In this document: piece after piece, positions 40,601 through 64,000 of the stretch | Layout: each line of letters begins with the position of its first letter | How positions within the stretch are numbered: position 1 is the first letter of the stretch | Assembly: GCA_946894095.1 (NCBI GenBank) | Contig: OX335641.1 | Coordinates: 762,501 to 826,500 of the forward strand | From: Incurvaria masculella | Lineage: Eukaryota > Arthropoda > Insecta > Lepidoptera > Incurvariidae | Reading direction: 5' to 3' | DNA: 64,000 nucleotides | Program-made: the position numbers and the translations under genes | The notes under the pieces: model-generated | Database searches by the model: none | What the model was told of the DNA's origin: nothing | Seen by the model: the letters and a program-made list of their open reading frames with translations, nothing else

Positions 40601-43600
40601 AAAATAAAAAAAACCTTCACAACGACAACTCCAAAAAGATCACCGTTACATAATCTGCGGCGTCGGCAGCGATCGTGATGGGTCGTGACGTATCGACGCG
40701 TGCATCTCGGCTAGCGAGAACACCTGTTCCCGCTAGCGGCGGCGGCGGCGGAGGACGCCACATCCGGACATTGTCTGGATGTCCGGTTCAAGGGGTCGCG
40801 CTGGCGGAATTATAATTCATCTCACTTCATATGCATAGGCACGAATGTGGAATAAATGCAGTGGAAAAATAGCGTATTGACAATCGCATAGGGAATCAAG
40901 GTGTCGACCTAACGCATGAACTGAAATTCGGACGCCATATCGAGGGTTAAGCCAAGATCGCCTCAAAAAGTTCCGAGTCCTCTACATTATGCGTCACTAT
41001 CTTGTGCCGCACTAAAACTAAAACTAAAACTAAAACTGCCCCTTCACTATAGGAGCGTATTCTGCGTGGAGTATTTGTTCGCGTCTGTGGGACAGTTCAA
41101 CAATCAGTAGGCCTCTCCCTGGAATTCCCTAATCAGGAATCAGGAGTCGTGAGTCTAGAAAACCGCTTTCCAGCGGGTTTCGAGACTAAGGATTCCTGAT
41201 TACGAAATTTTAAGAATAGAACTGCTGCTTGGCTACTTGGACTTGAGACAGCGCTTTTCCGTGCATCTCGTACTGACCCCATATTATCCCAGAATTACCC
41301 AGAGATACCCTCCAAATTCGAAGGTATTTTGGGATCTCTCTCGACGTTTTATTCCCGCTACCATAGATAATTATAGAATTAATAATTAAAATTTAACAAG
41401 ATGGTATTCTGAGCTGCATAACGCCTTTTACCATCGTTCCACACAAAACAGGCAGATATTACACCCAATCAATCTAGTCTAGATCCTTTATCCGTAACTG
41501 AGTATCAGGATTCAATCCGAAATGTGATGTTTTGGACACACTGAATCAGTCGGGAGCGCACTGGGGCGTCATTTAGCTGTTGCTTAGCAACCACTGATGT
41601 TATTTTTCTCATTTTTACATTTTAAGGAGACAAGAACATTTTCATTACTGTCTTAACAATGGTATAAACCCATTATTAAGGCTGCAGATATTTGATACGA
41701 GGGCATAGTTGGACACATTTTCATGCATGTATCTGCGGCTTCCCAGAAGGAGTAGACAAAAACGATATAGTGCTTTAAAACTATCCAAGAACATATATTT
41801 CACTTTTACATAGTTGTTTGCATATGCCAAACTAAACTCCATCATAACTTCGCAGATTTGAGCCAACCAAATCGACGAAGGGCGCGAGCAAAATGCGGCG
41901 GGACCTCATCAACGCGGAGATCTCCAACCTGCGGGACCTGCTGCCCCTGCCACCCTCCACCCGCCAGCGCCTCTCCCAGCTGCAGCTCATGGCCCTCGTC
42001 TGCGTCTACGTGAGGAAGATGAACTACTTCCAGCAGCGTAAGTTCAACTAGAGACATACATGCGAAACCCTATACATGTGCCGGGCATCTCGTCGACGAC
42101 CCTGAGGTACGGGAGGGTTTATAGACGACGTGGCGGACTTAGGGGAAGAAGGGAGCCTCTTGGTCACGGCCGGTTACGAGAGGGAGGGATCCAAAAGTGG
42201 TCTAAAATCCGTGACGCGTTTAATAAATTCTCCCTTTCCCAGAATTCAGAGACTTTCCAATGTTTTATCGTCTGTTTCCCGGAGATAACTATTTAGAGCT
42301 GTATAACCCAATCGATCTGCCCTCTTTCTTCCAATTCTCAAAGACGAAAATGCAGTCAATGTCCACGTTACTATAATTAGAAGCAACGGATCATTTCCAT
42401 TATATATTGGGTTGATAAGCTGTGGAATGCACGATTTCCGGCCGATATATTTTTCCTGAAGTACAATCCTTAAAAAATCCTTAAAAAATGGTGTAAAGCA
42501 TAGTTTTTGCAGACCTCGAGAAATTTCTAAAGCCCATGGGCGTTTTGTCGGGTGTCTCTTAGCTAAGAGACCTGTCGTATAAGATTTAGAATGAAATAAA
42601 TAGATGGAAAACTAGATATTGTAAAAATTGTTTGCTAATCGGAAAATATCTCATCTCGTATGTATATTCAGCATTCAGCCATCTAACAATTGTATTGTAT
42701 TGTTTTATTGCATTCATAGGTAGGTAACCTACACTTAAACATGTCAAGAATCGTTATGCTAGGTCTATGTCAAAGATATAAATGTCGCATACTTCCATGC
42801 ACATAAGAACTGGCAAACATATTTTGCCAGTCACAAATATTGCATGTACTTATGAAAACCCTGTTGTTACTGTTTATAGATGTTTGCTAATTCTCCTTTC
42901 TTGTTCATTTTGGTTTCCTGAATAACTCCCCAAATTAACTAAACCCTTCGACGAATCACTGTATTATTAGGACTTTAGGCCGCTAACTTACGAGTAGTTA
43001 TCGGTTGCGAATCAACGATGCATTACACAATGATAAAAATCAATAACTTGCCCACCACTCGACACCACTTGGATTGAATTGACTGCCAGGAAGACGTTGC
43101 AACATGGTAGTATATTGGCCCGTCCACTAATCGACCGATATCCATCAACGTCAATAAACTCTTTTTGCCAGCCGATTGAGACAACAAAAAATCCGGCGAC
43201 AGAGCACGCACGTCGGCCATTTTAGTTACTCAAGAATTGATGTTGAAAACTGCAGTCAAGTAAGACTTTAACAAGCTGGTCACTAGTTATTTTCTATTAT
43301 TAGACTTCCCTGAGGGATAGGCAGAGATGATAGACGGTCAGAAAGTAAGATCGAAGCATACATATTTCGCGAACTTTTCGAAGTACTTCCCGGGCACAAA
43401 AGATCCACTGACTTCCGCTAACATCTATTTTATGTTCCCAACTAATTCTCGTCCTTAGATCTCATTTAGTTGACAGTGCACTGTAACTCAAGTATTTTGG
43501 GACCTTATTCCTTATTTCCTTCATTAGATATATTTTACACACTCGGATTAGTCTTTTTTTCTGCCGATTCGATTACATCTGGCGAAGAACCGACTTTTTT

Positions 43601-46600
43601 TTTCTTTGATACTTACAAAATAGCTAACAACAATTGAATAATAACAACTGCTCACAAAAAAACATTACCTTTATATAGGTGCAGAGCAAACTCTTGACTA
43701 CCTTAATGCAATCTTATTCTAAATTAATATGTATTCTAGTCCAAAGTATTCTGGTGTAAAAGCTATCATATTTTTTTATATTGGTGATATCTTATTTTCG
43801 TTAGCTCGAACTTGTTAAGTTGTTTAGTTTAACTTATCCGGTGTTCTACTCAGCGAATTTGAAGACGGACATTATGGTAAAAATACAAGCTAACAGAACG
43901 ATTTAGAGCACCGGAACCTACGCAGCCCAAGTTCCAAATGTTCACTAGAACCGTCTTCTGCGACCGTGGAGATATGCCAAGACAGTTTCCCGGGCGATGC
44001 CCGCCGTCGTGACCAAGAGAGGACGCCATACCTAATCTCGATCTCTCTCCCATCCCTGCCTATGACACTGAAGGCACGCGGAACTAAAACATCTTCTCCC
44101 AAACGCGCCTTCGGTCACGACGCCCTCGGAAATTGAGACATTAGGCGCGCATTTTCATCGTCATGTCCTTATCTTATCGGCTCGTGTGCATAGTTTCTGT
44201 GTATCAGCGTATTTCTTTATGTTTTAGTGCTCAAAAGTCACGACTTCAGCTATCAGTATCAGGAGCACCCGACGCCGACGCCTACCATTGGGTTTTCGAA
44301 GGTGCGTAAACTTTTTATGTGACTTTTACGTCGTCGAGTTTTTAATGTGTGTAACGATGCTTTGCAATATTATAGTTTTACTAAAGAAGACAAATTAGGT
44401 TTGTTAAGCACAGATAATTCCGACGAAATACGGGGTTTTAAATACTTCTGTTATATATATATATTTTTATGTAACTGGACATGGATGGCTAATAACAGAC
44501 CTTCTGTCATGGTATTAGCCCAACACACCACATGGGAACTAGGTGCCATGCCAGGACCTTCCTTATATTGCACGGCTACATTGAACTGGATGGAAAACAC
44601 GGACAATTTCCATTGCCGCTTCGACCATCGTTCATCCAATGCGATGGTACCAACCCGAGCGGGATTAACCCTACCACCTAGTAAGTAAGGAAGGGGACCT
44701 ACAGTTTAACGTGGAATCCAAACCACGGCCAGCCTCTCTCAACGGTCGAATGGTCTACCATCCAAGACCAGACCGGACCCAGCGTTGCTTAACTTCGGAG
44801 AGCGATCGCCGAAGTGTCGCGCCACTGGGCCATTGAGGCTGACAATCAACAACACCACTGCTCACACATCAAATAATTAAGCATGATAGTAAGTCATAAT
44901 TTCGTTGTGGGGAAGACTGAAATTATTTAGATGCAAACCGCATCAAAATCAGGGCTCTTAAGTTCTAAGTGGACAGAGAGACGGAAGGTAGAAATAAATA
45001 CAGAGCAAAGACCGATAGAAAGACAGACGGAAAGAGATTCAGACGTCACACGTTTGAGTTCATTAGTACGATTCAACGATAAAATAACGTAAATGTTACT
45101 TACATTTTTGTGAAAATATTGAATGAATTAGTCCTGCTTCCCTCTGAAAATTATTTTTTATTGAGAAAAATATATAACATATTTATATAACATTATTGTC
45201 ATAAATGTAACCGATACAGGATATAAAAAAACCCCTAAAATAGCCGGCTTTTGATTAAAACAAAAAAATATATATTTGTCGGCAGTTCTCTCGCAATACT
45301 CTCCCTGACTTTATGGACGTGATGATTTGAATAATCACATTTAAATGTTTTGTTTTAGGCACTAAATGGATTTATGATGATGCTGACGCAAGGCGGAAAA
45401 CTTCTTTACATATCGGAAAATGCGGCTGAATACTTAGGGCATTCAATGGTAAGAACAATTCGTAACAATCTCGATAATCATAGGTTTCAACAATTCTTGA
45501 TTGACACATTGCCGACATTGTCTTGACCCCGCCGCATTCTCTTTGCGATCAAGGCTGGCATCATGTTTGGGCAACGCCAAAGAAACGCAGGTTCTTACTT
45601 CCGCTAAGATTAAAGTTTTTCTGTAAATAAAGTTCATTGTATTTAGGTGAAATATGTTTTGTGATAATCATGGGTGCATATCCATTTTGGACTCTTGCTT
45701 CTCTTTTGGAAATTAAGAAGAAGATAGCCGTTGTGGTTGTTAAATGTTTTGGTAAAATCATAATTTGATAATACTTTTGTTTCGTACAGAATTCCCACTA
45801 ACTTAACTCTCCAGAAACACCACCTCAGCATAATTCCTAACAAACTGAGAAAATAAAACACTATAATTCACTATAAAAAACATTAAGGAATAACATATCA
45901 TAATATAATCGACGTAACATTATTTATTGTTAAATTAAACAGTATTTTTTATTTAATTGTTCTGCTATAAAAATCACAGTCGAACATATTGTATTGGGAT
46001 ATTTGCACTCCTATTTAATCGATACCATTTATGGATTGTATGATCCAAACCGATTCTAGAAATAGTCTTTTTACTTTGGAGGGCGATTCTTAAGGCGCAT
46101 AAACAACTTGTGTTCTAAGATATTTATATTCTATGCTCCTGATATTTTAAACATTAAAATTAAAAATAAATTATTTCTCATAAATGTAAGAGATTTAGAA
46201 TGGGTGCGGCATATAAAACCGAATGAAAAAAATATCCTAAAATTCTAATATTTAAAATACAATCCCCTTTTCAGTTTGAAATTCGCAAAAGTATATGCAA
46301 TAGAAAATCCAATACAACCCTCCGACATGTATTTTGAGAATCGCTCTTTTCACTAAACAATTTTGCATTCACCACGTTTAGTGTTTTCTACAGTTGTAAA
46401 TAATGTATGAATGTTTCCGTCGCGAACGGCAGGAAGACCTCCTGATCCACGGCGACAGCGTGTACGACATCATCGACCGGCAGGACCAGCAGGCGGTGCG
46501 GACGGAGCTGACGCGCGGCGCGCACGCCGACGAGGAGGAAGCGCCGCGCACGAGGCACTTCTTCTGCAGGATGAACGTGTCGAGGAACGCGAGGAGACAG

Positions 46601-49600
46601 ATGAGATTCGGCGATCAGAAGGTGACGATTGTTCGACGCCCCTGATTCATTCGAGGTTGCTTTATCTTGTCAGAAACTTAAATGTTTATTTTTTTTTTAA
46701 GGTAGAATGAAAATTTATTTGATAAAATGTTAAGAAACTAAAAATTAAAATCATAATCACGAATTAAAATATTCTTCCATGGGGACCGATGACATTGTCC
46801 CCATAACGGAGGCAGCGTTTCCCCGCTGTATCGCCTGGCTTATGCGCTGCTTAAGGCGGCCCATCCCGCTCAACTCCGCATACAAACGGGGAAAGAAGAT
46901 CACGCCCATATTTCTAGTCAAATATCCCAAATTTTGCTCAAAATAACTTTATTTGATCGAACTAGATGTCTGATGACCGTTGTCATTGTAAAATTGTGTT
47001 TGGTTTCTAAGTTTTAAGGTCCGAAAGTTCGATTTTTTCGCGCGTTTAATACAATATCTTTGGAGGTGGATTACGCAATGATAAAGTAAGAACGTCTTAA
47101 AAAGATTAGTCATCAGACATAGCTTATTTAATCAAGATTTATAGGCAATTTGGTTTTTGTTAGATGTTTGAATACAGCGGTCGTCGTTTTGTTTTAGCTA
47201 TAAGTCGTTTTGTAATTAAACTTTTCGTAAATCTTACCAAATCATACACTATGCACATTGTCTTTTTTGTGGACATGTTGCATCTTCCTCATCATGGAGC
47301 CTGTCTTATTCTTCGAAACAGAGAAGATCCCAGAGCGCAACAGCACGGTTTTGTACCGTGCCCGCGAATGAGTTAGTCCCGCCGGGTTGGGCCACCTTAA
47401 AGGAGTCGTATTCACTACGTATAATATTCACAACGTATAATAGTATTTTTTTCCAAAAAATTAAAACCATGCATATCGTATAATATTCACAACGTATAAT
47501 GTTATACGTTGTGCATGAGTTTAAAAATAAAATAAACTCTTTGCATCATGCAGAACGTATAATAGTCACAACGTATAATATTCCTAACATGAATTCACAA
47601 AAAAAGAAAACCATGCAGAACGTATAATATGCCAAGAAGCACTGCATAAAGCGCCCTAACATCGATACATTTAAGGCTGAAATTGCTACGAATCGATATC
47701 TGTTGAAGAGTAACAATTTGCTACAACGCTAATTGAGACGGTCGAAAAGTCGCGTGCGAGTATAATCTTTAATCTTATATCGATAAGGGCGCTTATCGTA
47801 TGAAATATTTTAGGATTATATGATATGCATGGTTTTCTTTTTTTGTTAAATAAAGATCATAACATTATACGTTGTGACTATTATACGTTATGCATGGAGA
47901 AATAAGTAATTTAATTTTTTGGACTTCTTCATGCACTACGTATAAGATTATACGATCTGCATATTATACGTTATGCCGTTCCCCCCCTTAAAGAACGCTC
48001 CTGCTCGAAGGTCGCCCGAAGCTTCTATCAAAAGTTTGTTGAATGTAACATATATTATATACACAAACTTTGCGGTATCGAACCTAAACTGAACTAAAAT
48101 GAGTGAACTTCATTTATTATTTCATTTAATTTCATTTCATTTATTTAAACTTTTTGGTAGACAGACTACACTAAGTTACGTCAAAAAGTTCCGCGGATTC
48201 GATCAACCCACTAAAGAAGAACCCGCAAAGAAAACATATTTTTCCATCCACAATTATGAAATACACACTTAGATCTAAATCCTACTGCCAAACAATTCCT
48301 TGGTAGAACAGATTAAGGCAAAGAACAAAGAACAATAGAAACAGCAACCCTCAGTTTAAATTACTTACAACTAACAAAGTTACTAATGCAATAATATAAA
48401 TGAATGTAATTTATAGTATTACAAGTATTTACTGGTGTAAAAAATTTGCTAAGGTATACTTGTATTTCAACTTTATCTTAATCATTTATATTTTTAGGAT
48501 GACTACGGTGTGGTGGTTAAGTGGTGTAGTCTGGAGTGGAGTCGTGCGGTGTGGTGTAATGTAATTCCGGGTAAACCGGGCAAGTGTGTGATTAAATCTG
48601 ACATATCGTTACATTTCTCGCGATGCCATCTGTCAAACGACGTGTTATTCGGCCAAGTGAACAGAAATTTACCAGTTATTACAGTAAGACAAGGTTTAAA
48701 ATCTTAAATTTAATCACTCACATGCCTGGTAATCCGGTGAGTTAATTAACCATGGTGGACATGGATGGCAAATATCACATCCACCCGCCCGCATGGGCGG
48801 GCTAAATCCTATACTATAACTTAGCAAGGCAACGAATCATGGAACAGCTCGCATTCATGAAAAAGTGCACTTATACAACTCAAAAGAGAAATAAAGTAGT
48901 GGATGAGTGGACCCGGGATTGAATCCAAGACCTCTCTCATGAGAAGCAAGGGCCCGCATCGTGAACGACGAGCCACTCGTAATTCGTGAAAGTAATAATC
49001 TATATATTTCGGTTTGAAGTGAGAGAATTAACTAAAGTATTAACGAATTAATGCAAAAAATTGTGACATTTTATTACAACATTAGTAGTGCGATTAAAAG
49101 TTAGCCAACTATTGGTATTCCTGCAATCCGCACACAGACAATAATGCGTTGAATACGGTGCTACTATGATTTCCTTACTTCACTGAAAGGTACTGCTTCG
49201 TCTCGTACCGGTAGCTCTGCAGCCGCTACGAGCTAGTCGGCAGATCGTACGCTCGGGAAACGCGGGAAAGCGTTATACACGGAGCCACTAACCTATTTTC
49301 TCACCAACAGGGTGCTAGTGCGGGGCCGCCATGCGCCGGAGGCGCGGGAGTGCGTTGCACACGGCGCCACTGATAACTCCTCTCACCAACAGGTGGTGCT
49401 GGTGCGGGGCCACTTTGTCTCGTACTTGCCGCTCTGCAGCCGCAACGAGCCGGTGATCCTGGCGGCCTGCACGCCGCTTGCCATTCCGGAGACGCGGGAG
49501 TGCGTTGTACATGGCGCCACTAATAACTCCTCTCACCGACAGGTGGTGCTGATGCGGGGCCACTTCGTCTCGTACCTGCCGCTCTGCTGCCGCAACAAGC

Positions 49601-52600
49601 CGGTGTTCCTCGCGGTCTGCACGTCGCTCGCCATGCCGGAGACGCGGGAGTGCGTTGTACACGGCGCCACTAATAACTCCTCTCACCGACAGGTGGTGCT
49701 GGTGCGGGGAAATTTCGTCTCGAACCTGCCGCTCTGCAGCCGCAACGAGCCGGTGTTCCTGGCGGCCTGCACGCCGCTCTACGTGCCGGAGACACGAGAG
49801 AGCGTTTTACACGGCGCCACTAATAACTCCTCTCACCGACAGGTGGTGCTGATGCGGGGCCACTTCGTCTCGTACCTGCCGCTCTGCTGCCGCAACAAGC
49901 CGGTGTTCCTCGCGGTCTGCACGTCGCTCGCCATGCCGGAGACGCGGGAGTGCGTTGTACACGGCGCCACTAATAACTCCTCTCACCGACAGGTGGTGCT
50001 GGTGCGGGGCCATTTCGTCTCGAACCTGCCGCTCTGCAGCCGCAACGAGCCGGTGTTCCTGGCGGCCTGCACGCCGCTCTACGTGCCGGAGACACGAGAG
50101 AGCGTTTTACACGGCGCCACTTATAACTCCTCTCACCAACAGGTGGTGCTGGTGCGGGGCCACTTTGTCTCGTACCTGCCACTCTGCAGCCGCAATGAGC
50201 CGGTGTTCCTAGCGACCTGCACGCCGCTCGTCATTCCGGAGACGCGGGAGTGCGTTATACACGGCGCCTCTAATAACTCCTCTCACCGACAGGTGGTGCT
50301 GGTGTGGGGCCACTTCGTCTCGTACCTGCCGCTCCGCAGCCGCAACGAGCCGGTGTTCCTGGCGGCCTGCACGCCGCTCGCCATTCCGGAGGCGCGGGAG
50401 TGCGTTGTACACGGCGCCACTAATAACTCCTCTCACCGACAGGTGGTGCTGGTGTGGGGCCACTTCGTCTCGTACCTGCCGCTCCGCAGCCGCAACGAGC
50501 CGGTGTTCCTGGCGGCCTGCACGCCGCTCGCCATTCCGGAGGCGCGGGAGTGCGTTGTACACGGCGCCACTAATAACTCCTCTCACCGACAGGTGGTGCT
50601 AGTGCGGGGCCACTTCGTCTCGTACCTGCCGCTCTGCAGCCGCAACGAGCCGGTGTTCCTGGCGGCCTGCACGCCGCTCGCCATTCCGGAGGCGCGGGAG
50701 TGCGTTGTACACGGCGCCACTAATAACTCCTCTCACCGACAGGTGGTGCTGGTGCGGGGCCACTTCGTCTCGTACCTGCCGCTCTGCAGCCGCAACGAGC
50801 CGGTGTTCCTGGCGGCCTGCACGCCGCTCGCCATTCCGGAGGCGCGGGAGTGCGTTGTACACGGCGCCACTAATAACTCCTCTCACCGACAGGTGGTGCT
50901 GGTGCGGGGCCACTTCGTCTCGTACCTGCCGCTCTGCAGCCGCAACGAGCCGGTGTTCCTGGCGGCCTGCACGCCGCTCGCCATTCCGGAGGCGCGGGAG
51001 TGCGTTGTACACGGCGCCACTAATAACTCCTCTCACCGACAGGTGGTGCTGGTGCGGGGCCACTTCGTCTCGTACCTGCCGCTCTGCAGCCGCAACGAGC
51101 CGGTGTTCCTGGCGGCCTGCACGCCGCTCGCCATGCCGGAGACGAGGGAGTGCGTTGTACACGGAGCAACTAACGTCTTTACAACAATACATTCAATGGA
51201 TATGAAGATCTTGCATATCGATGCAAAGTAAGTGCTTCATTCTGTTTTTTTTTCCTATTTGAGCATATCGTCCCCGTATTGGGAAAAGTCACTAATTGCA
51301 AAATATTAGTTCCGAGATAATCGAGATTAAAGATTTTTTCAACTTTGAAAAATCGCAACTCTTATCCCTACAAAGATATCTGTATAGTTATATTTTTTAA
51401 AAATTGGTTGTAATCATGAAATGGTAAAACAGAATTCAAATCCAATCTTAAATATTGGTTTCCTTAAAGAAAAAAAAACTTTACCAATTTGGTGATTTTT
51501 CATAAACTGAAATTTGTAGACTTTTGTAATTAGTGACTTTACCTAAGGAGTAAGTGAGTTTTCCTGCATTTGTTAATACTATTTAATTATTTTTTTCAGC
51601 GTTTTGGTTAATTTGGCCAATCACATAAAATATATTTACACTTAGTTATTTATTAAATTATCAAATTTTATCATTTCAATTTAGGTAAATTAATGAAATG
51701 AGATCTTATTTTTTATTTTTCTAATTTTTATTATGAAAAAGTAATCACACAATGCGAAACAAACAAACAGTTAAGTACCTACAAAGTAAAAACATGCGGA
51801 GAAATTAAGAAAACGGGGATATTAAGATTTATTTTTTGAATTATTTAACTTCAATGTGCCATTTTTTGGGTACAAAATACAAGAATCCGGCTATTCGGTA
51901 TTCAGCCCTTTGACTATCAGCAGCTATGACTATGAATAGTCAGAAGACTCCTTATTTTCTTCGTTTTCATAAATACTATCTGGTTCTGGCAGCCTATCGA
52001 CTACTTCTGTATTATCGGGTAGAGCATTGTACCAAGGATGTAATTCGCTAGGAATTACGCTCTTCTTGCACAAATCAATCAAGTCTCTTTCTTTTGCCTT
52101 TGATATTGGCAAAATATGTTTGTACGCTTTTGGAATAGGTATATCGAAACATGAGTCTTCCAATCTATCTTCTACATGGCGTGGGATGTCACGTTTTTCC
52201 CCCGTCTTGCGCGTGTCTCCACTGATGTTCCTTTAATTATGAACTTTATTGGTTGCAATTGCCGTGTATTTAAATCAATATAGGGGCCGCTGTGGTCGTA
52301 CCGGAATTTGATAATTCCTGGATAATTCTTTTCGAAATGAAGGCATTTAATTTTTACCCATTTTACGCTGTTCCCATTTTCATCAGTACATCGGTTCTGT
52401 ATTATTCTTTCGTTTAGAGTTTTCACGTCCAGCATGTCTTCATATTTCAATTTTACTACTTCATATTGTTCGGCATTTGTTCGGTGTCTTTTTGTGTCTT
52501 TCTTCATAATATTTTTTCAGTCTATCATTGAAAATACCTGAATATACCGTTTTTCTGTTTCTATCGCGCTATGCATACTGTCCACTTCCATATACGAGTG

Positions 52601-55600
52601 CCCACTTTCTAAATATTTTGTTCGATCACTTCCAAGTCAGTATTTTGAACAATATGTAGAAAAAAAGCAGCTATGTACTGATTTCTGTTTTGCCCTGAGC
52701 AAGTATCTGAAAATAACTACACTTCTTTTACCTCTTTCGATAATTGACAGATTTACCAGTAAATCCCTGTAGCAATTTCCACACCTCCACGTTTTCCGTT
52801 AAGGCTGTTCCGACCCATTTAATGTTTTTTGCACACATAACGCAAAAAGTATTGCACTTTAAGCCACGAATTCATAATAAAAGTTTAATATAGTCATATT
52901 ACTTCCAGCGAAAACAATTTCAAAATTTCAGGATTATTGGTTTTGTTACAATTTATTTAAATACGATTTTTATTTAACAGCGCCATCTAACGGTGTAAAA
53001 CTTCTAATCGGCAATTACAACGTAACCATTAAACCTGAAATTGTGAATATGTTTTCGCTGCAACTACTATGGCTATATTTAATATTTTTGACGAATTCGT
53101 GCCTTAAAGTGCAATACTTTTTGCGTTCTGTGTAAAAAAACATTGTATGGGAACATCCTTAAGCTCGTTCCATGTAAGGCAAAAGGCATTGTTGGGCTCT
53201 TTCGCTTCATACATCGTCAAATTATGAACGTTAATTTTACTGGAATAGTAAAGTGGACCGATGTCACCACTGGGAATTTGTAGGACACTTTGCAAATCCA
53301 GTGTCACAGACACAAACGCAGAGTCTTCTTACATTTAATTTTGTCTGCTTCTTTAGCAGACTTTTCAGTGACCTTTCTAGCCATATGTTCTTCGTACTCT
53401 TCTTTTAAGGATTCAGGTTTACCGAAATTGTCATATCGATTGCAAGTTGGACATTGGTCTTTCTTTGAATGGAAAAAAGATAGATAGACTGCCATGGAAA
53501 CAGGTTCATGGCCTTCTATAGTCGAACCTTTTCTAAGACTTTCTCTGATAGCAAAAATTTTATAATCTTCATACATTTTCGAAATGGTTAGATGGATGAG
53601 AGTCTTGGTTTTCTTCCTACAATAGTGAGATTCCATTGTAGGAAAATTGGTGATTTGATCTTTGACAAATTTAATGTCTACTGGAGATGTCTTGTTCACA
53701 GGATCATTAGAGCCACGAACATATTTTCCTCCGAAGCTTCCATATTCATTTTTGCCTGCCAAGGCCTTGTCAATGGGCCCATTTGATATGCATAGAGTTT
53801 TCTTAAATAATCTTTACACACCCGAATGTTATTTGAATTTTTTACAAAATAATATTTTAGCAAACTTGTAGCAATGTAAGGTTTCTTTATCACATCACAC
53901 GATGCTAACTGGCCGACTCACACTCACTGACTGCGCTGCTGACTGATGCGATTTGATGAGTTGTGGAGCGAAAGACTCTGGAGAAATACCTAACTTCATT
54001 TAGGAACTTTGCGCGCTAAGTTTAATTTTGAGAAAACGAACTAAAAGCCTTTGAATGTGAATGAAATCATTTTAGTATTCTAGGAGAAATAACTAAACGC
54101 ATCTATTGCCTTCGGATGCAAGGTTTCACTATGGGAAAAGTAACTATTAGCCATTGAATGTTTATGAAAACATTTTAGACTTCTAGGATAAATAGCTAAA
54201 CGCATTTAGTGAATTCGGATACAAGATTTCCTTATGGGAAAATTAACTAAATGCACTTAATGATTTTTGTTGGTAAAATATTTTTTCAATATTTAATTTG
54301 AAAAAGATATTAATTGTCATTATCGATTTTTCCACAAAATTTTCGTAACTTTTTTTTTATGGAAGATTAGCTAAATGATATTAGTGACTTTCGTTTGGTT
54401 AGTTAGAATAACATAAATATAAGGACAAGTCCTTAATGGAATTATTTATTTTTCCATGCATACATCGGTTAAATTTGTTTACTTAACGATTTTTTCACTT
54501 CGAATAACTGGAAAACCGTTGGGAAATCTCATTTTCTGGGTATGCAGAAAAATAAAGTAAAAAATAAAAAATAGGTTGGTGTTAATAACTCAATTTCGCT
54601 AAAAATGTTAGTTGGTGACTTTTCCCAATACGGGGACGATATGTTTTATGAAATTAAAAAAAAAATCCTAACAGGCATAAAAATGTTTAATTGATTTCAG
54701 TGCGGAATGGTACCTAGGATGGAATAAAACTGAGCTCACAGATGTGTCGTGGTACCAGCTCCTACACTGGGAAAGTTTAAGGGAAGCACAAAATAAACAC
54801 AGACTAAGTAAGTACAATTTTGCTTGTGTTTTCTAAAATGATGAACATTTATTATGATTTACGCATCACGAACGATCCCCGTATTCGTAGGATAAAAAGA
54901 ACAAGTTGGTTAAAAGAAAACTTAGCAATACTTAAAATTTTACGCTTTTAAATTACATCTTCAAAATTTACATCGATAAGGTTAGTTCAGGTTGATTAGG
55001 TTGCTTAGATTGGATGAAGTTAGTTTAAGTTAGGAAAGATTAGGGAAACCTATTTATAAAATGCATTTTATACAATTACAAATCCCCTCCGATCCTTGAA
55101 TAAAAACGTGATTTCTGTTGCATATAGTATATTTTATTATTAAGCAGTTCGATGGAATTTTGTAACTGTTCACCAAAGGTCATGGACATAGGTATAATAA
55201 CAACGGTCATGGATAGTATTTATGGATATGATGCATACATAATTTACCGATGACGTAAAGTGGTTACCGGTCGGAAAACCGACTAAAGAACGATGCAGAT
55301 TTCAATTTAAAATTATATCAATTTTAAAATGCTGTCTTTATTATATTTGAAGATATATTTAACATTTCTTAAATCCATCAATATTGTATACCCTGAATAC
55401 ATTGTTAGAAAGTCTATTAACTGTGCCTATAAACCTTTTCTTTTCCAAATCTTGAATGGCGATGGATTCTATTTTTCCCACAAATATTCCAATGAAACAA
55501 TATGCTTTGCAGTAACTCAATCAGAGCAGGACAAGTGCTGTATCCTCCTGGCGAGACTTCAGCGGCGTTCGGGCCAGTTCCTGTGGGTGCACGTCGTCCT

Positions 55601-58359
55601 TCAAGTCAAGGATTCTGCTGACACCCCCCATCAACTAATCGTGGCCACAAACCAGGTTCTCAGGTGAGAATAGACTTAAAAACCGTTAGTACAAGTGTTT
55701 TAGCCGTCATGTTAGGTATTTATATATATGTCATCTAAAAAGGATTTAAATAATTTAGAACGTGAATAACGTTTATGTGACAAGAGATCTTTGATTCTTA
55801 TTCCTTGTTCGGTTTAATATACAGTTATCTGTTCGTTCTTTATGTATTTATAACCCAGCCATATTATTCATTAGGTTTCATTTTAAAGATGTTTTGGTTC
55901 AGTCTTAGTTCCTTAGTAAAAACTAAATAAACATCGTGATAAATGCCAGTTTCACTTCTAAAAACCTAATATTAAGCCTATTCGCCAATAATTTACAGGC
56001 ACACAATTTACCTTCATCTTATTCATTCATAACAATCTAAGACTTGCCTTTCTATTTCTTCAGTCAATCAGTCAGTCAGTTTGCGTCCACTGCTGGACAT
56101 ACGCCTCTCCAATTTTTTTCCAGTCCTCCCGGCCCTCAGCGGTATGGAACTACTGCTTTCCGCCGACGCACTCGATGTCGTCGTCCCATCTGGCGGGTGT
56201 CTTTCTTCACGATCGTCAATTCGTACAAAAAAAAAATACTATATTTTTTTTTATTTTACAGCGATAGTGAAGCCTCCATCATGATGGCCAACTCCTGGCT
56301 CTACCACTTCTACGGGTACCAAAATCAGCCTTGCGGAATTCCACTGGACCCTCGCTGTCAGAAGTTCATCCGGAGAGACCAAAGCTACACCGACGCCTAC
56401 AGCCAGGAGCCTTACTCCTACAACCCTGATGTCGGCGATGAGTATCCATACGGACAGGGTCCAGTGAGGTACATGCAGCAAAGGGATATGAGCTGCGGAG
56501 AAGAGTACAGGGTCCTCGATCGACCATATTCGGAGAGAGGGCCAGTCGATTACTCTACGCATTCTCCGCATTCTACTATAAGCGAAGAGAGGTGAGTAAT
56601 GTGTTTTTTTTTCCAATAACATTGTGAGGGACAAAGAACACCCAGAAATTAATAGTAATACAAAAAAGGAATTTAAAATATAGCTGGCTATTGAGCAAGG
56701 TATTTACTACTAGGAATAAGAATGTATTGGTCCGTGTGTGAGCTTTGAGGACGCGTCGCTTCGTAAGTTATATCCGTTGAAGGGAAAAACCTAGACTTGA
56801 GACATGGAAGTGTTCAAGTATTGACCAGTATTGACCACTGTCAAAAACCTAACTAGTTATAAGCATGGAGGTGATCACCTCCATGGTTATAAGATTAACT
56901 TTCTTTCTGAATGTATTTATTTTGAGGAAATAGCTGCCATTAAAATTTGTCTTACCTAAAATAATCAGAGTTGGTCAAACATAACCAGTTCCTTGACGAC
57001 TTAATAACAAGAGAGGAAATACAATTAAATTAACCGTTGTTGTGATTAAAATTGACCTTCGTCTACCCGATATCGTAATCGATTTGAACTTTAATTTCGC
57101 CTCGCATCTAATTATCATCGCAACACATCAAATCGAATAACCAGTACTAAACTAACACAGCTTTCGTCACATCTTCCGAGAGCAGAAATCTTAACACTAC
57201 GGCGTCAGTTTCAAGTTGCACCTTAGCGCTTGTGGGGTTAGCTAGCATAATTTATAACCGTCAGAGCGACAGGCCGACAGCGCAGACGAATGTGAAAATC
57301 ATCACATTGCGGCGGCGGATGGCAGTAATTTGACGTTTCATTTGCATGGTTAATGCTTGTACGATTTTTTAACTGTGTTTTTTTTAAATTGGATCTCGTC
57401 TCTCTTCTCATTCATCTCAGTATTAATTTATTTCGTTTGATTTGGTTAACATTTTGGAATTGTTAGAAGTGTCAAGAGATTGATAATCGTACCATGCCAC
57501 TTTTTAACCTAAAATTATCGAATATGTCATTTGAATAACAACTTTTTACTTAAAGCACTTGAAACCGAATAACCGATTCTTATAAAATCTGTCGTGTCTG
57601 TCGGCCTTATAACATGTGAACCCAAATTCGATCCCATTTACGTCGTCGTAAGTTGATTCTTTCCATAAATAATAAGCTGCTTACCATCAGGCTAACTTAC
57701 AGGAACTTGGGGTTACGTCTTCAAGTTACTAAACAATTTAACGTCTTAAACATGAAAAATTAACTTTAATGCTAACGGCATGGGTTAAAACTCGGCTACT
57801 CTCGTTTTGATTCGAAGCACGATAATTTGCAATCGAACCCTAGTTATCGAATCCATAATCAGTTATTAATTCACTTTTATAAAAAAACAATCCAAAATCT
57901 TTTATTGAAACCAGATGGCTACCGGATATGCCTACGGCATCTCCCTAAATATACCACATACAAATGTACCCCATGTAAATGTTTTAAGATGCTTTTATTT
58001 CGTTGTTCCCCAGATCCCCTCATAGCTACGACTACCCGGCAGAGATCGCCGTCAACGGTGACGTCTACCTATATCCAGCGGTTCCGACGAAACGGGAGAA
58101 TCCCGAGCAGTACAGGATAGACAACTACCACCCAGTCCTCACCGATGAGCACATGGTTCGAGCGAGCCACACCGAAGTTCCCATCAAGAGACCCAGACTG
58201 GCCCCCGCCGCCCTCTGTCTGGATGCGACGGATGGCATGGAGAGATGGAACCCCAGTCCGCCTTGGTCGGACTCGGCCATGAAGATTGCGGAGATCCAAA
58301 GATTCAGCTATGGTCATATCGTTCCTCTCACGCAGACCGACCGGCCGCTTTGTACGTGA
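34602..58359 (+). CDS. dys: dysfusion (bHLH-PAS transcription factor), whole gene span
   Basis: Ten exons join in frame: 34,602-34,627 (tentative), 41,856-42,037, 44,228-44,301, 45,359-45,448, 46,433-46,621, 51,043-51,227, 54,701-54,807, 55,513-55,663, 56,262-56,591 and 58,014-58,359. The sum is 1,680 nt including the stop, or 559 residues, and every intron is GT-AG with matching phase. Domain order is bHLH, PAS-A, PAS-B, then a Tyr/Asp-rich tail. The bHLH shape ([14 protein letters not shown]...LLPLP) and the PAS-A HLGHSM/YDII-type motifs mark the NPAS4/Dysfusion branch. In flies Dysfusion is a nuclear factor that pairs with Tango (ARNT) and controls tracheal fusion and leg-joint genes. The introns are rich in mobile elements. 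One exon is multiplied upstream of its functional copy (see 49,393-51,042). Confidence 0.88.
34965..35235 (-). mobile_element. Old SINE copy, reverse orientation
   Basis: Words of tail (GGTGCCATGCTATGACAT), body (ACAATGGAAGACAGGGCCAA) and head junction (TATGGAACAGCTCG, then GAATGAGAAGCAAGGCC) occur in the right order but are strongly diverged. Confidence 0.5.
35755..35850 (+). mobile_element. SINE tail fragment
   Basis: TGGCACCTAATTCCTTCGTG through GTGGTGTATTGGGCTAATAT to CAGGTTGTATAAAAAA. 5'-truncated and fairly young. Confidence 0.75.
37282..37544. mobile_element. Short hAT-type element with 8-bp target duplication
   Basis: It begins CAGGGTCTCTTAACCTGGGG and ends ACGTTAAGAATTG. The ends are inverted with mismatches, followed inward by GGGGTCCATGGACCCC on the left and AAGGGGTCCATGAC on the right. 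Flanks are AGTTAGAG and CGTTAGAG, an 8-bp duplication with one difference. The end style is that of hAT elements. It is too short (263 bp) to encode a transposase. Confidence 0.7.
38450..38675 (+). mobile_element. LINE 3' end with ATT tail
   Basis: The last stretch reads GTGTGTGAAAATAAATCA, then TTTAATT and at least seven ATT units, as in LINE 3' ends. Upstream sequence includes GTTCGCCCCTGCTGACATCC, possibly the end of the coding part. Confidence 0.5.
38970..39085 (-). mobile_element. SINE body fragment
   Basis: Reverse-orientation words CATGCCAGGACCTGCCTTAT, GAACTAGATGGAAAACATGG and CATTGCCGCTTCGACCATCG belong to the SINE body. Confidence 0.7.
39245..39345 (-). mobile_element. Fragment of the GGCCAAGTGCGAGTCGG element
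   Basis: The reverse complement begins AAAACCGGCCAAGTGTGTGT and continues to an AAGGGTTCCA segment, as at 58,877. Confidence 0.55.
39899..39960 (-). repeat. Second interspersed family, fragment
   Basis: GGAAGGGTAGGCAGATATGA and TAGAGCGCCATACGGCACGA match, in reverse, the segments at 23,807-23,866 and 24,220-24,290. Confidence 0.5.
41130..41202. other. 73-nt hairpin upstream of dys bHLH exon
   Basis: The arms TAATCAGGAATC...AGTCTAGAAAACCGCT and AGCGGGTTTCGAGACT...GATTCCTGATTA pair with a few mismatches and one internal bulge. The loop is TTCC. The size is in the range of microRNA precursors. Confidence 0.65.
41856..42037 (+). CDS. dys: dys exon 2, bHLH domain
   Basis: It encodes [20 protein letters not shown] followed by the helix-loop-helix with [20 protein letters not shown], ending in [10 protein letters not shown]. 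The basic region has the RR-D--NAEI pattern, and the loop is short as in NPAS4/Dys proteins. The acceptor is TTCGCAG; the donor is CGTAAGT after one base of a codon. The exon is GC-rich compared with its introns. A cytosine at the splice junction completes Leu with exon 3. Confidence 0.9.
42060..42320. other. Intron 2 start, unassigned
   Basis: The 78-codon open frame just after the bHLH exon is intronic. It shows no conserved domain and the donor at 42,038 lies before it. Confidence 0.5.
44228..44301 (+). CDS. dys: dys exon 3, linker before PAS-A
   Basis: It encodes [20 protein letters not shown] plus GFSK, between the bHLH and PAS-A. The acceptor is TTATGTTTTAG and the donor GTGCGT. The 74 nt take the phase from 1 to 0. 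The short Pro/Thr stretch is a flexible linker. Confidence 0.85.
44460..44840 (-). mobile_element. 5S-headed SINE, full length, reverse orientation, in dys intron 3
   Basis: Read on the minus strand, the head is GGCCCAGTGGCGCGACACTT, then a segment like the 3' half of 5S rRNA (CCGAAGTTAAGCAACGC, GTCTTGGATGG) with the usual internal promoter elements. After it comes the same body and tail as in the tRNA-headed copies (GTAGGTCCCCTTCC, GGTACCATCGCATTGGATGA). One family tail is thus joined to a different promoter head. Confidence 0.8.
45359..45448 (+). CDS. dys: dys exon 4, start of PAS-A
   Basis: It encodes [20 protein letters not shown] then [10 protein letters not shown], the first strands and helix of a PAS domain. 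The GKLLYISE...LGHS pattern is characteristic of NPAS4/Dys PAS-A. The acceptor is TTTTGTTTTAG and the donor GTAAGA. The exon is exactly 30 codons, phase 0 to 0. Confidence 0.9.
46433..46621 (+). CDS. dys: dys exon 5, middle of PAS-A
   Basis: It encodes [20 protein letters not shown], an acidic insertion ([10 protein letters not shown]), then [20 protein letters not shown] and QK. The GDSVYDIID motif and the FFCRMN strand are PAS-A hallmarks. It is 63 codons, phase 0 to 0. The donor after AAG is GTGACG, a weak match that may make inclusion or choice of the distant downstream acceptor sensitive. Confidence 0.9.
46851..47400 (+). mobile_element. TTAA-flanked nonautonomous element, family T2, copy 3
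   Basis: TTAA at both ends, with termini GGCGGCCCATCCCGCTC and GTTGGGCCACC. It lies in dys intron 5. Its right TTAA is also the left TTAA of the next element. Confidence 0.85.
47397..47991. mobile_element. TTAA-bounded element with iterated ACGTATAAT motif
   Basis: About 595 bp between two TTAA sites. Both subterminal regions carry many copies of ACGTATAA or its complement TTATACGT, about a dozen in all, in both orientations, whereas the middle (47,640-47,780) lacks them. Such subterminal arrays are typical transposase-binding sites. No transposase is encoded. The outer ends are not a good inverted repeat, so the exact limits are uncertain. Confidence 0.6.
48118..48300 (+). repeat. Interspersed repeat with GCGGATTCGATCAACCC core
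   Basis: Shares TTTAAACTTTTTGGTAGACA, ACGTCAAAAAG and AAGAAGAACCCGCAAAG with 63,730-63,905, suggesting a common retroelement-derived family. Confidence 0.6.
48745..48985 (-). mobile_element. SINE copy in dys intron 5, reverse orientation
   Basis: It runs from the tail (GACATGGATGGC) to the head (GACCTCTCTCATGAGAAGCA...GAGCCACTCGTA). The CGCATGGGCGGGCTAAATCC segment corresponds to the usual GTTTAAGCCCGCCC. Diverged. Confidence 0.6.
49191..49310 (+). pseudogene. Decayed first unit of the dys exon array
   Basis: It aligns with the repeated exon from TACTGCTTCGTCTCGTACC to TTCTCACCAACAG, but has substitutions and deletions that remove the frame. It keeps a perfect branch-point-type CTAAC followed by a pyrimidine tract and CAG. 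This end may be closest to the original intron-5 acceptor. Confidence 0.8.
49311..49392 (+). pseudogene. Truncated unit of the dys exon array
   Basis: It has the first 17 or so bases of the unit, then a 68-bp deletion, then CGCGGGAGTGCGTTGC and the acceptor CTCTCACCAACAG. Because 68 is not a multiple of three, using its own acceptor after exon 5 would lead to a stop within about 20 codons. Confidence 0.8.
49393..51042 (+). repeat. dys: Eleven in-frame 150-bp copies of the dys PAS-A end exon
   Basis: Units start at 49,393 and every 150 bp to 50,893; the twelfth (51,043) is the functional exon. Each unit has 132 nt of exon (44 codons, [14 protein letters not shown]... to HGATN) and 18 nt of intron-like end with a pyrimidine run and CAG. 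CTAAT just before it is a branch-point-like motif. The 50-codon unit keeps one frame throughout, so an open frame runs from 49,312 to 51,231. Units 2 and 4, 3 and 5, 7 and 8, and 9-11 are the same or nearly the same in protein, showing recent higher-order duplication and homogenisation. Units 2/4 have V4M, S16C, E19K; units 3/5 have Y11N, C37S; units 7/8 have R5W, C15R. Whether any of these units are translated is unknown. Confidence 0.9.
51043..51227 (+). CDS. dys: dys exon 6, end of PAS-A and start of PAS-B
   Basis: The last unit of the array, and the only one that continues past the repeat into [17 protein letters not shown]. The first part holds the final PAS-A strands ([31 protein letters not shown]) and the second the first PAS-B strand. 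The acceptor is CTCTCACCGACAG and the donor GTAAGT, phase 0 to 2. The residues AT-N at the repeat junction are encoded by GCAACTAAC, which resembles the intron branch site (CCACTAAC). This microhomology could have seeded the duplication. Confidence 0.9.
51930..53893 (-). pseudogene. Degenerate DDE-type transposase
   Basis: In order on the minus strand: [17 protein letters not shown] start; [23 protein letters not shown]; a Cys-pair [63 protein letters not shown]; and a C-terminus with [14 protein letters not shown]. The [10 protein letters not shown] and [12 protein letters not shown] motifs look like the catalytic part of a transposase family common in insect genomes, usually annotated as uncharacterised. 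I do not assign the superfamily with certainty (Sola-like is one option). The frame is broken near 53,790 and 53,315, by stops in 52,510-52,800 and by a MITE at 52,799-53,162. It is therefore inactive. Confidence 0.75.
52799..53162. mobile_element. TTAA-flanked foldback MITE, family T1, copy 3, inside the transposase
   Basis: TTAA at both ends, termini GGCTGTTCCGACCCA and GGGAACATCC, interior as in the copies at 12,244 and 28,908. It splits the transposase between the [13 protein letters not shown]...[10 protein letters not shown] part and the [10 protein letters not shown] part. Confidence 0.85.
54701..54807 (+). CDS. dys: dys exon 7, PAS-B core
   Basis: It encodes [20 protein letters not shown] then [15 protein letters not shown]. 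The [13 protein letters not shown] pattern is the typical PAS-B helix region. The acceptor is TTGATTTCAG and the donor GTAAGT. The first base completes an Asn with exon 6; the last base starts an Ile with exon 8. Confidence 0.9.
55513..55663 (+). CDS. dys: dys exon 8, PAS-B end
   Basis: It encodes [20 protein letters not shown] then [14 protein letters not shown] and [10 protein letters not shown], the last strands of PAS-B ([23 protein letters not shown]). The acceptor is GCTTTGCAG and the donor CAG/GTGAGA. A second AG nine bases downstream (AATCAG) would also stay in frame and drop three residues. The upstream one is preferred because the sequence reads continuously through TQSEQD. Confidence 0.88.
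56075..56215 (+). mobile_element. LINE-derived fragment in dys intron 8
   Basis: It contains GTCCACTGCTGGACATACGC and CCTCCCGGCCCTCAGC, words of a retroelement fragment I know to be very common in lepidopteran introns. It ends fewer than 50 bp from the exon 9 acceptor, so it may contribute to the upstream splicing signal. Confidence 0.55.
56262..56591 (+). CDS. dys: dys exon 9, Tyr/Asp-rich C-terminal region
   Basis: It begins by completing a Ser and continues [20 protein letters not shown], the conserved segment right after PAS-B, then a stretch rich in Tyr, Asp, Pro and Gln ([20 protein letters not shown]). Such composition suits a disordered activation region. The acceptor is a long T-run plus ACAG; the donor is GTGAGT. 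Confidence 0.88.
57330..58013. other. End of dys intron 9, unassigned
   Basis: No repeat recognised. A stretch at 57,220-57,350 (CATTTGCATGGTTAATGC) contains the octamer ATTTGCAT, a POU-type site, and is less AT-rich than its surroundings. Confidence 0.3.
58014..58359 (+). CDS. dys: dys exon 10, C-terminus
   Basis: It encodes [20 protein letters not shown], then [13 protein letters not shown], a basic IKRPRLAP patch that could be a nuclear localisation signal, then [20 protein letters not shown] and a TGA after DRPLCT. The acceptor is GTTGTTCCCCAG. A donor-like GTACGT overlaps the last codons (58,352), so an extra 3' exon in some transcripts cannot be excluded. Possible AATAAA poly(A) signals occur near 59,240 and 59,384. 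Confidence 0.82.
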
Positions 58360-63909: not shown

Positions 63910-64000
63910 CGGTGGCCCAGTGGCGCGACACTTCGGCGATCGCTCTCCGAAGTTAAGCAACGCTGGGTCCGGTCTGGTCTTGGATGGGTGACCATTCGAC
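63910..64000 (+). mobile_element. 5S-headed SINE head, cut by the window end
   Basis: GGTGGCCCAGTGGCGCGACA leads into CCGAAGTTAAGCAACGCTGG and CTTGGATGGGTGACC, which resembles the 3' half of 5S rRNA, including the box C-type GGATGGGTGACC. Because the 5' half is replaced by a short tRNA-like lead, and a second copy occurs inside a SINE at 44.8 kb, this is a SINE head and not a 5S gene. Confidence 0.75.

Follow-up and report, generated by a model that had tools for sequence, protein, structure and literature searches.

In the moth Incurvaria masculella, a gene of the dysfusion (dys)/NPAS4-type bHLH-PAS class carries at its intron 5/exon 6 junction a tandem array of 150-bp units, each of which repeats the start of the exon together with the end of the intron, and a second dysfusion paralogue carries the same unit at its own exon 6. 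On balance, we consider it somewhat probable that the outermost splice sites are normally used and that the upstream copies are tolerated intronic passengers with possible leakage, this assessment applying to the explanation as a whole, including the origin of the array and the exchange of sequence between paralogues.

The repeated unit and its host gene

Within the window, that is, the whole 64,000-nucleotide stretch of DNA analysed here, TRF reported a 150-bp tandem array at 49336-51173 (12.3 copies, 93% matches, score 3193), with a GC content of 65%; all window features given below lie on the forward strand. Each unit is made of a 132-nt exon copy and 18 nt of intron end, comprising a branch-point-like stretch, a pyrimidine run, and CAG, and it thus joins the 3' end of an intron to the 5' part of an exon, as in tandem duplication across an intron-exon boundary. 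The earlier note had counted 12 full units with acceptors at 49,392+150n. The series is indeed regular and there are twelve unit heads, but only eleven complete 150-bp units (49393..51042, with the boundary CAG|GTGGTG at each), the twelfth being the first 132 nt of the genuine exon 6; the figure given marks the last base of each AG, and the exon starts lie at 49393+150n (n=0..11). The branch-point-like CTAAT ascribed to every unit is present at 10 of the 12 acceptors, the other two having CTGAT and CTTAT. At the 5' edge, both the truncated and the decayed unit described previously were found. The truncated unit (49311..49392; 82 nt, with a 68-nt deletion) provides with its tail the acceptor of the first full unit and is itself out of frame, in silico joining giving a first stop at residue 198. 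The decayed unit, the oldest, was placed by alignment to the unit at 49190..49310 (94 matches, 26 mismatches, and 4 gaps against the consensus), with an AG at 49189 and a possible older acceptor, CTGAAAG|GT, just ahead of it.

The array is real in the assembly, of which there is one. An assembly artefact or a badly wrong copy number is highly unlikely: identical neighbours (units 1 and 3, 6 and 7, and 9 and 10 over 132 nt) could hide errors, but the units have diverged individually, differing at up to 18 of 132 nt, with decay toward the 5' edge, and the unit is arrayed again in the paralogue, where it shows variants of its own. As for origin, a tandem duplication over the intron 5/exon 6 junction would have copied 132 nt of exon and the last 18 nt of intron, and the array would then have grown by unequal exchange, in the order of events that we infer. 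The branch-point-like CTAAY of each following acceptor appears to derive from exon codons, GCA-ACT-AAC, with which the preceding unit ends.

The identity of the gene as dys was borne out by tblastn matches of lepidopteran Dys proteins and by alignment to NPAS4 chains. The exon model was built by tblastn with lepidopteran Dys proteins, and its joined translation has no internal stop; the resulting 550-residue model shows full-length colinear homology with Dys/NPAS4 proteins, the best of the 25 matches listed having 74% identity over 545 residues and the solved NPAS4 chain 7xi3_B aligning with an E value of 7.5e-56. The first exon read here (41857..42037) encodes the bHLH, the exon with the start codon not being among those located, and is followed by exons at 44228..44301 and 45359..45448, the latter of which we take to be the start of PAS-A, and by exon 5 (46433..46621), which belongs to PAS-A and ends in phase 0 with AAG|gtgacg at 46621. 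The genuine exon 6, located by tblastn at 51043..51227 (185 nt), consists of a unit head and a unique tail, with the donor gtaagt at 51228. Like the exons ahead of exon 6, those after it were placed by tblastn and the joined model: exon 7 (54701..54807), exon 8 (55513..55663), presumably PAS-B, exon 9 (56262..56591), and the last exon with the stop (58014..58359). The array site lies at the end of PAS-A and ahead of PAS-B, as previously claimed, on the basis of the alignment to NPAS4 chains and a weak PAS_11 match beginning in the exon-6 tail, the exact domain borders around exon 6 being those that we assume. Apart from this weak PAS_11 match, nothing of use came from Rfam and tRNA searches across the window or from Pfam searches of selected frames.

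The second paralogue and probable sequence exchange

The second dysfusion paralogue lies ~350 kb from the window gene in inverted orientation. Its exon 6 carries 20 of the same units (array A), so that 12 unit heads in the window array (array B) face 20 in the paralogue. On the donor side of its exon 5, the paralogue also contains ~6.6 copies of a 145-bp unit, with six identical donors AAG|GTAAGA at 145-bp steps, of which the first alone leads into exon 6 in frame. Because the other five lead to a stop, a working paralogue must use the exon-proximal donor. Across the two dys loci (284 kb), arrays of at least 6 copies with a period of at least 60 lie on exon edges in 3 of 3 cases, two of the three not being independent. 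In a random 50 kb drawn from 5 places, a single array reached 6 or more copies (115 bp, GC 0.47), a sample too small to give a frequency of exon-edge arrays.

The two exon-6 arrays have the same majority base at 150 of 150 positions, and this common consensus argues that they exchange sequence. Four of the 10 array A variants also occur in array B, with 0.8 expected, one of the four being the base of both genuine exons. Between the paralogues, silent codon differences affect 3/44 codons of the exon-6 head and 42/115 in four control stretches (p=7e-5). Among these controls, the bHLH exon alone (9/55 codons silently different) is not significantly different from the exon-6 head (p 0.13); against the other three together (33/60), p is 1e-7. 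Within exon 6 itself, the paralogues differ by 2.3% in the head and by 21.6% in the tail. The favored explanation would include parallel amplification at the paralogous exon 6 and beside the donor of the paralogue's exon 5, with exchange between the paralogues keeping the two exon-6 arrays alike. The high similarity in the unit part of exon 6 would fit an array kept by selection for a non-protein role, e.g. as a gene-conversion reservoir keeping the paralogous exon-6 heads alike, but we find this hardly credible, since repeat exchange by itself gives homogenization without selection.

Splice-site choice, reading frame, and selection

When exon 5 was joined in silico to each acceptor, all twelve joins gave an open protein, in agreement with the proposed phase 0, and the products ran from 550 to 1,100 residues in 50-residue steps, matching the proposed maximum of 550 extra residues. 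An open frame (49237-51231) spans the array; its 664 codons alone prove nothing, because the other frames are also rather open, owing to the high GC content. The acceptor expected to be used is the last one, CACTAATAACTCCTCTCACCGACAG|GTGGTG (51018..51048). When 3 mismatches or fewer were allowed, 32 matches to its junction were reported in the 552-Mb genome, all within the two exon-6 arrays and with no further place reported outside them. As a 17-nt junction is common to 10 of the 12 acceptors, the last one included, the acceptor sequence cannot decide which is used.

The contention that the units have acceptors but no donors was not borne out. Every unit starts with GTGGTG after CAG, and CAG|GTGGTG is the strongest donor-like site of the array, with a crude U1 pairing energy of -7.4, stronger than that of 5 of the 8 donors of the dys gene; its match to the consensus (4/7) is poorer than that of the dys donors (5-6). 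Donor-like strength of this order also arises by chance, since, of 143 GTs in the intron ahead of the array (46700-49190), 2 show stronger U1 pairing. Clusters of mutually exclusive exons were considered and rejected: between 49190 and 51227 no site is stronger than CAG|GTGGTG, only the last unit is followed by the exon donor gtaagt, and the neutral-like substitutions among copies speak against alternative protein modules. AGGT is present with fixed spacing at every unit boundary, 12/12 in the window and 20/20 in the paralogue, and all 66 of 66 whole-unit excisions made in silico keep the frame, both as in arrays of the UBC type. As in human UBC, splicing could therefore remove units in GT-AG blocks, and, judging from the in silico excisions, the mRNA might lack the full array or any integral number of its units with the frame kept.

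Long introns favor the splice sites that are closest across the exon (Carranza et al. 2022, PMC9225289), and the introns here being long, exon definition would be expected to pair the donor at 51228 mostly with the nearest acceptor, at 51042, giving the normal protein, while the copies farther upstream would be borne as part of the intron. Acceptors upstream would also be expected to capture some of the splicing, adding 50n residues. For 3' sites, the portion of that report drawn on here, which contains no moth data, describes exon definition as lowering the preference for upstream sites, a reduction and not a stated reversal, and the first acceptor could therefore be used. If the acceptor at 49392 were the one used, all units would be translated in one long exon as a fixed 550-residue insert, a reading in line with the open frame, with the overall preference for upstream 3' sites (PMC9225289), and with the annotation of eight successive copies in a Plutella protein. 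We regard it as very unlikely, for such an exon would measure 1,835 nt between long introns, and PAS-A would be closed by unit 0, which departs from two residues, F22 and M31, that at least 97% of homologues retain.

Substitutions among the window copies look neutral. In the 11 full units, 35 substitutions comprise 22 replacement, 13 silent, and 0 stop changes (ratio 0.83, bootstrap 0.39-1.55); array A alone has 10, 7 replacement and 3 silent (6.9 and 2.9 expected), and both arrays together have 41, 25 replacement and 16 silent (27.9 and 12.5 expected). For 28 conserved residues defined on 175 homologues, each of the 11 upstream units of the window changed at least 2, whereas the last unit, in the genuine exon 6, changed none; in the paralogue, conserved residues were changed in 16 of the 19 upstream units and none in 3. 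The unit, which encodes the end of PAS-A and a linker, is accordingly not conserved as a whole protein module. Other signs fit translated copies, although recent homogenization could explain them. No indel was found in the 11 full units with 36 substitutions, the two edge units having 7 alignment gaps and 32 mismatches; in frame 0, no change creates a stop (0.7 expected), as against 4 and 1 such changes for the other frames (expected 1.35 and 1.29); of the 35 changes, 3 fall at codon position 2, where 11 would be expected (post hoc P 0.001); and the junction zone -18..+8 has 1 variable column in 26 (5.7 expected), with P 0.008 for the zone as named and 0.23 after scanning for the best zone.

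These observations bear on a splicing ladder, in which several acceptors and internal AG|GT sites would be substantially used, so that, as with the variable number of ubiquitin units from UBC, the stretch from PAS-A to PAS-B would gain anywhere from 0 to 11 modules of 50 residues, or from 0 to 19 in the paralogue. All acceptors of both arrays (12/12 and 20/20) are in frame and open, with AG|GT at all boundaries, and the 30 full units of the two exon-6 arrays are free of stops and indels. The linker site also differs in length in the alignment to chain 7xi3_B, and UBC offers a precedent, its RT-PCR ladder being described in the part of the report cited (PMC10809524). On the other hand, a unit of 150 is divisible by 3 with a chance of one in three, and the donor-side array of paralogous exon 5 is not in frame, so that frame-keeping is no general rule of these arrays; together with the neutral-like replacement rate and the conserved residues lost in upstream units, this appears to argue against a selected length-variable protein. 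We therefore consider a ladder possible but doubtful. A version in which both paralogues run one, stochastic or regulated, over 12 and 20 near-identical AG|GT sites, giving a transcription factor with a PAS-A to PAS-B distance that changes in 50-residue steps, while array exchange keeps the functional exon heads alike, seems unlikely.

Known systems and significance

Tandem arrays of dual-specific AGGT splice sites have been reported in human UBC and VCX3A (Duan et al. 2024, PMC10809524). As far as the cited part of that report goes, UBC and the moth array have in common head-to-tail units, AG|GT boundaries, a unit length that is a multiple of three, and frame-neutral unit removal. Each UBC unit is a whole protein monomer lying within an exon, and RT-PCR has shown that inclusion varies; the moth unit, which we know from its sequence, instead straddles the border of intron and exon, codes for the end of a PAS domain, and is not protein-conserved in the window. 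A further parallel is found in potato RdRp, which gained an intron when a stretch spanning an intron-exon boundary was duplicated in tandem (Ma et al. 2016, PMC4974935): in the portion considered, there too an intron 3' end and the 5' part of an exon were duplicated, bringing a branch site, a pyrimidine run, and AG. The potato case involves one extra copy, a cryptic GTAAG donor, and RNA support, whereas the moth arrays, read here from genomic DNA, have 11 and 19 extra copies, with the exon's own first GT as the donor-like site. In human genes of segmental duplications, internal tandem repeats that sit on exon-intron borders can alter splicing and create introns (PMC2812944); the repeats covered in the cited part lie in primate segmental duplications, as opposed to paired arrays in a developmental regulator. 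For reported duplicated AG/GY sites, the authors state in the section drawn on here that a multiple-of-three size permits both splicing and retention; the cases described there lie inside coding exons and established introns, whereas the moth has a many-copy array at an intron end.

Among moths, the Dys model P0001 of Plutella xylostella repeats the same exon start, with 8 copies of the motif LPLC..EP as compared with 1 in P0044 of the same species, its unit having 28 residues as opposed to 50 in I. masculella. P0001, known as a protein model, may be a model or assembly error, its bHLH stretch being also doubled. In a search for longer annotated proteins with the 1,100-residue query (candidates up to 1.75 times that length), only P0001 had a multi-copy score among the 120 of 129 matches listed. 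Gene predictors could easily hide exon-edge arrays as intron, and such arrays may thus be commoner in moths than protein databases suggest.

Together, the two loci amount to a natural experiment on spliceosomal choice, one that presents at least a dozen near-identical acceptors and, at exon 5 of the paralogue, six identical donors. Exon edges including their splice sites have been amplified, apparently tolerated, and kept alike between paralogues ~350 kb apart, and exon-edge amplification is a possible route to new introns and to proteins of variable length.

The exon 6 array of dysfusion in the window

The + strand of the window carries a dysfusion (dys)/NPAS4-type gene whose nearest relatives are moth and butterfly proteins, the best of the 25 matches listed for the joined protein sharing 74% identity. 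Nine exons were placed by homologous proteins and, when joined, give an open 550-residue protein, the start-codon exon not being among the nine. Among the proteins listed, lepidopteran dys proteins fall into two kinds, of ~540 and ~650 residues (our own grouping from the sequences), and the gene in the window (G000:C1:762501-826500, in a genome of 552,006,686 bases and 31 contigs) is of the shorter, ~540-residue kind. At its intron 5/exon 6 junction, TRF reported an array at 49336-51173 with a period of 150, 12.3 copies, and 93% matches; together with unit-by-unit comparison, this bears out the earlier note, which had described an exon amplified in tandem with its 3' splice site. Each unit joins 132 nt of exon (VVL...GATN) to 18 nt reading as an intron end, and CTAAT lies ~20 nt upstream of CAG in 10 of the 12 acceptors, the remaining two showing CTGAT and CTTAT. 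Eleven complete units precede the genuine exon 6 (51043-51227, + strand), the sole copy running on into the conserved tail and donor gtaagt, and at the 5' edge of the array lie a decayed unit and an out-of-frame unit truncated to 82 nt. Units 1 and 3, 6 and 7, and 9 and 10 are identical over 132 nt; because units 1 and 3 are the same while units 2 and 4 differ at three sites, a two-unit block was copied as well. From the old copies at the 5' side and the near-identical ones at the 3' side, we infer a trace of repeated unequal exchange.

Exon 5 spliced in silico to each acceptor gave an open protein in 12 of 12 cases, so all acceptors are in frame as proposed. The companion claim, that the units have acceptors but no donors, is not supported: GTGGTG directly after CAG opens every unit, every boundary reads AG|GT, and each unit is therefore itself a 150-nt GT-AG block. 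CAG|GTGGTG is the strongest donor-like site within 49190-51227 (crude U1 pairing energy -7.4); the eight donors of the gene range from -5.1 to -11.1, five being weaker than the unit-start site, and in the upstream intron U1 pairing stronger than -7.4 is seen at 2 of 143 GTs. By consensus, the unit-start site matches at 4/7 positions versus 5-6 for the donors of the gene. The 17-nt junction at the acceptor of the genuine exon is common to 9 of the other 11 (10/12 overall), and the acceptor sequence is therefore uninformative on which site is used.

Other repeats were also seen. Intron 6 of dys contains a 103-bp tandem doublet (54032-54251) and, on the minus strand at 51930-53813, open frames resembling mobile-element remains by eye, three of which were tested against Pfam and gave 0 matches. 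Window positions 44776-44832 and 63912-64000, and a 236-bp doublet at C1:445900-446373, resemble by eye pieces of a 5S rRNA-type gene, which may sit in a short interspersed element; Rfam scans found no match in the window at gathering scores and none for 44700-44900 at E 0.01. At a randomly sampled place (L031:8504-9294), a 115-bp unit stands in a tandem array with 6.8 copies and a GC of 0.47.

Arrays in the second dys gene and probable exchange between the loci

Searching the same genome with the array revealed a second exon 6 array on the same contig, at C1:457-460 kb on the minus strand (G000:C1:457216-460338; loci L005 and L006), with 19 complete units and the genuine exon, i.e. 20 unit heads (the exon parts), and decayed copies upstream. 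CGACAG precedes and GTGGTG starts all 20 heads. The host is the other dys paralogue, with exons mapping to C1:552-416 kb (minus strand); most of those found are well conserved, and the exon expected after exon 6 was not seen there, 2,500 bases of that intron being N. The 31-nt junction, allowing up to 3 mismatches, occurs at least 12 times in the array of the window and at least 20 times in that of the paralogue (lower bounds, common words being skipped by the search); no place outside the two arrays was reported in this genome, and the reversed control gave 0.

The majority base is the same at 150/150 positions between the two arrays, and of the 10 variants in the second array, 4 also occur in the first against 0.8 expected, one of these being the base that both genuine exons carry. 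Between the two genuine exons 6, the 132-nt head has 3 differing sites and the next 51 nt have 11. Codons for the same amino acid differ at 3/44 in the head versus 42/115 in four control stretches (p = 7e-5). These controls are uneven: the head is not significantly lower than the bHLH exon alone (9/55, p 0.13), whereas the other three together differ at 33/60 codons (p 1e-7). The stronger evidence for exchange is the identical consensus, which includes the 18 intron-derived nt, and the break in similarity inside exon 6. Sequence has thus most likely passed between dys genes ~350 kb apart and in opposite orientation, with functional exon heads taking part.

The paralogue carries a further array at the donor side of exon 5 (G000:C1:486014-486965, minus strand; locus L009), with a 145-bp period and ~6.6 copies, the exon itself counted. 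Its later units start with GTAAGA and end with GACCAGAAG, and there are six identical donors AAG|GTAAGA. Only the first joins in frame to exon 6; with the five others the reading frame stops at residue 122 or 149, numbered from the start of exon 5. Because the sole in-frame donor is the first, the exon-proximal one of identical donors must be chosen if the paralogue works. Of the internal evidence on copy choice this is the best, but it assumes a functional paralogue. The donor-side array also shows that exon-edge arrays need no kept frame.

Copy choice and the extra protein

In the portion of Carranza et al. 2022 (PMC9225289) consulted, long flanking introns favour the sites nearest across the exon, and the upstream preference is reduced at 3' sites. 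Intron 5 measures 2.8 kb to the first acceptor in the gene of the window and 26.6 kb in the paralogue. Because long introns favour the nearest sites across the exon, the main splice would be expected to be 46621 to 51043, plus some share of longer forms. A tandem duplication over a splice junction would then be nearly invisible to the mRNA and free to expand, and the AG|GT boundary may offer a second route for leaving units out; in silico excisions between unit starts kept the frame in 66/66 cases.

The earlier note had instead proposed a choice among 12 acceptors yielding a length-variable Dys protein. The exon parts of the 11 full units show 35 changes (22 replacement, 13 silent, and 0 stop); under a neutral model allowing for CpG and transitions, the replacement/silent ratio comes to 0.83 (bootstrap 0.39-1.55). 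Across 175 homologues, 28 of the 44 unit residues are ≥97% conserved; those 28 account for 12 of the 21 distinct amino-acid changes, 17/21 new residues are absent from all homologues, and each of the 11 upstream units has at least two conserved residues changed, the last unit having 0. Pointing the other way, the full units (36 substitutions) contain no indels, the two edge units together having 7 alignment gaps and 32 mismatches, and stop-making changes number 0 in frame 0 (0.7 expected), against 4 in one and 1 in the other of the two remaining frames. Codon position 2 has few changes (3/35, P 0.001, a choice made after looking), and the junction shows a quiet zone (P 0.008; 0.23 after scanning). 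Recent homogenisation accounts for the absence of indels and stops, the few position-2 changes, and the quiet junction as well as translation does. A length-variable Dys factor is possible but is not the best-supported reading.

Related systems and meaning

The nearest known system, from the parts of the literature consulted, is human UBC, in which tandem dual-specific AGGT sites give variable ubiquitin unit numbers (Duan et al. 2024, PMC10809524); the same source gives an 8.4-fold excess of introns with a length that is a multiple of the surrounding repeat. According to excerpts of other papers, a new intron was made in potato by duplication over an intron-exon boundary (PMC4974935), and human duplicated genes carry repeats at their exon-intron borders (PMC2812944). 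Among the matches listed from the open-licence literature, with dysfusion papers covered by the starts of their abstracts, there was no report of dysfusion exon-edge arrays. In Plutella xylostella, one of two Dys protein models (P0001) has 8 motif copies with a 28-residue unit and the other (P0044) has 1 copy; P0001 is the only protein with more than one motif match among 177 returned, 7 of which had no pattern match. P0001 also has a doubled bHLH stretch, P0044 having single copies. Single-copy proteins elsewhere are no proof that an array is absent, because an intronic array could leave one annotated copy. The larger finding is the presence of exon-edge arrays in both dys paralogues; one paralogue bears them at either end of a single intron, and the loci most likely exchange sequence.
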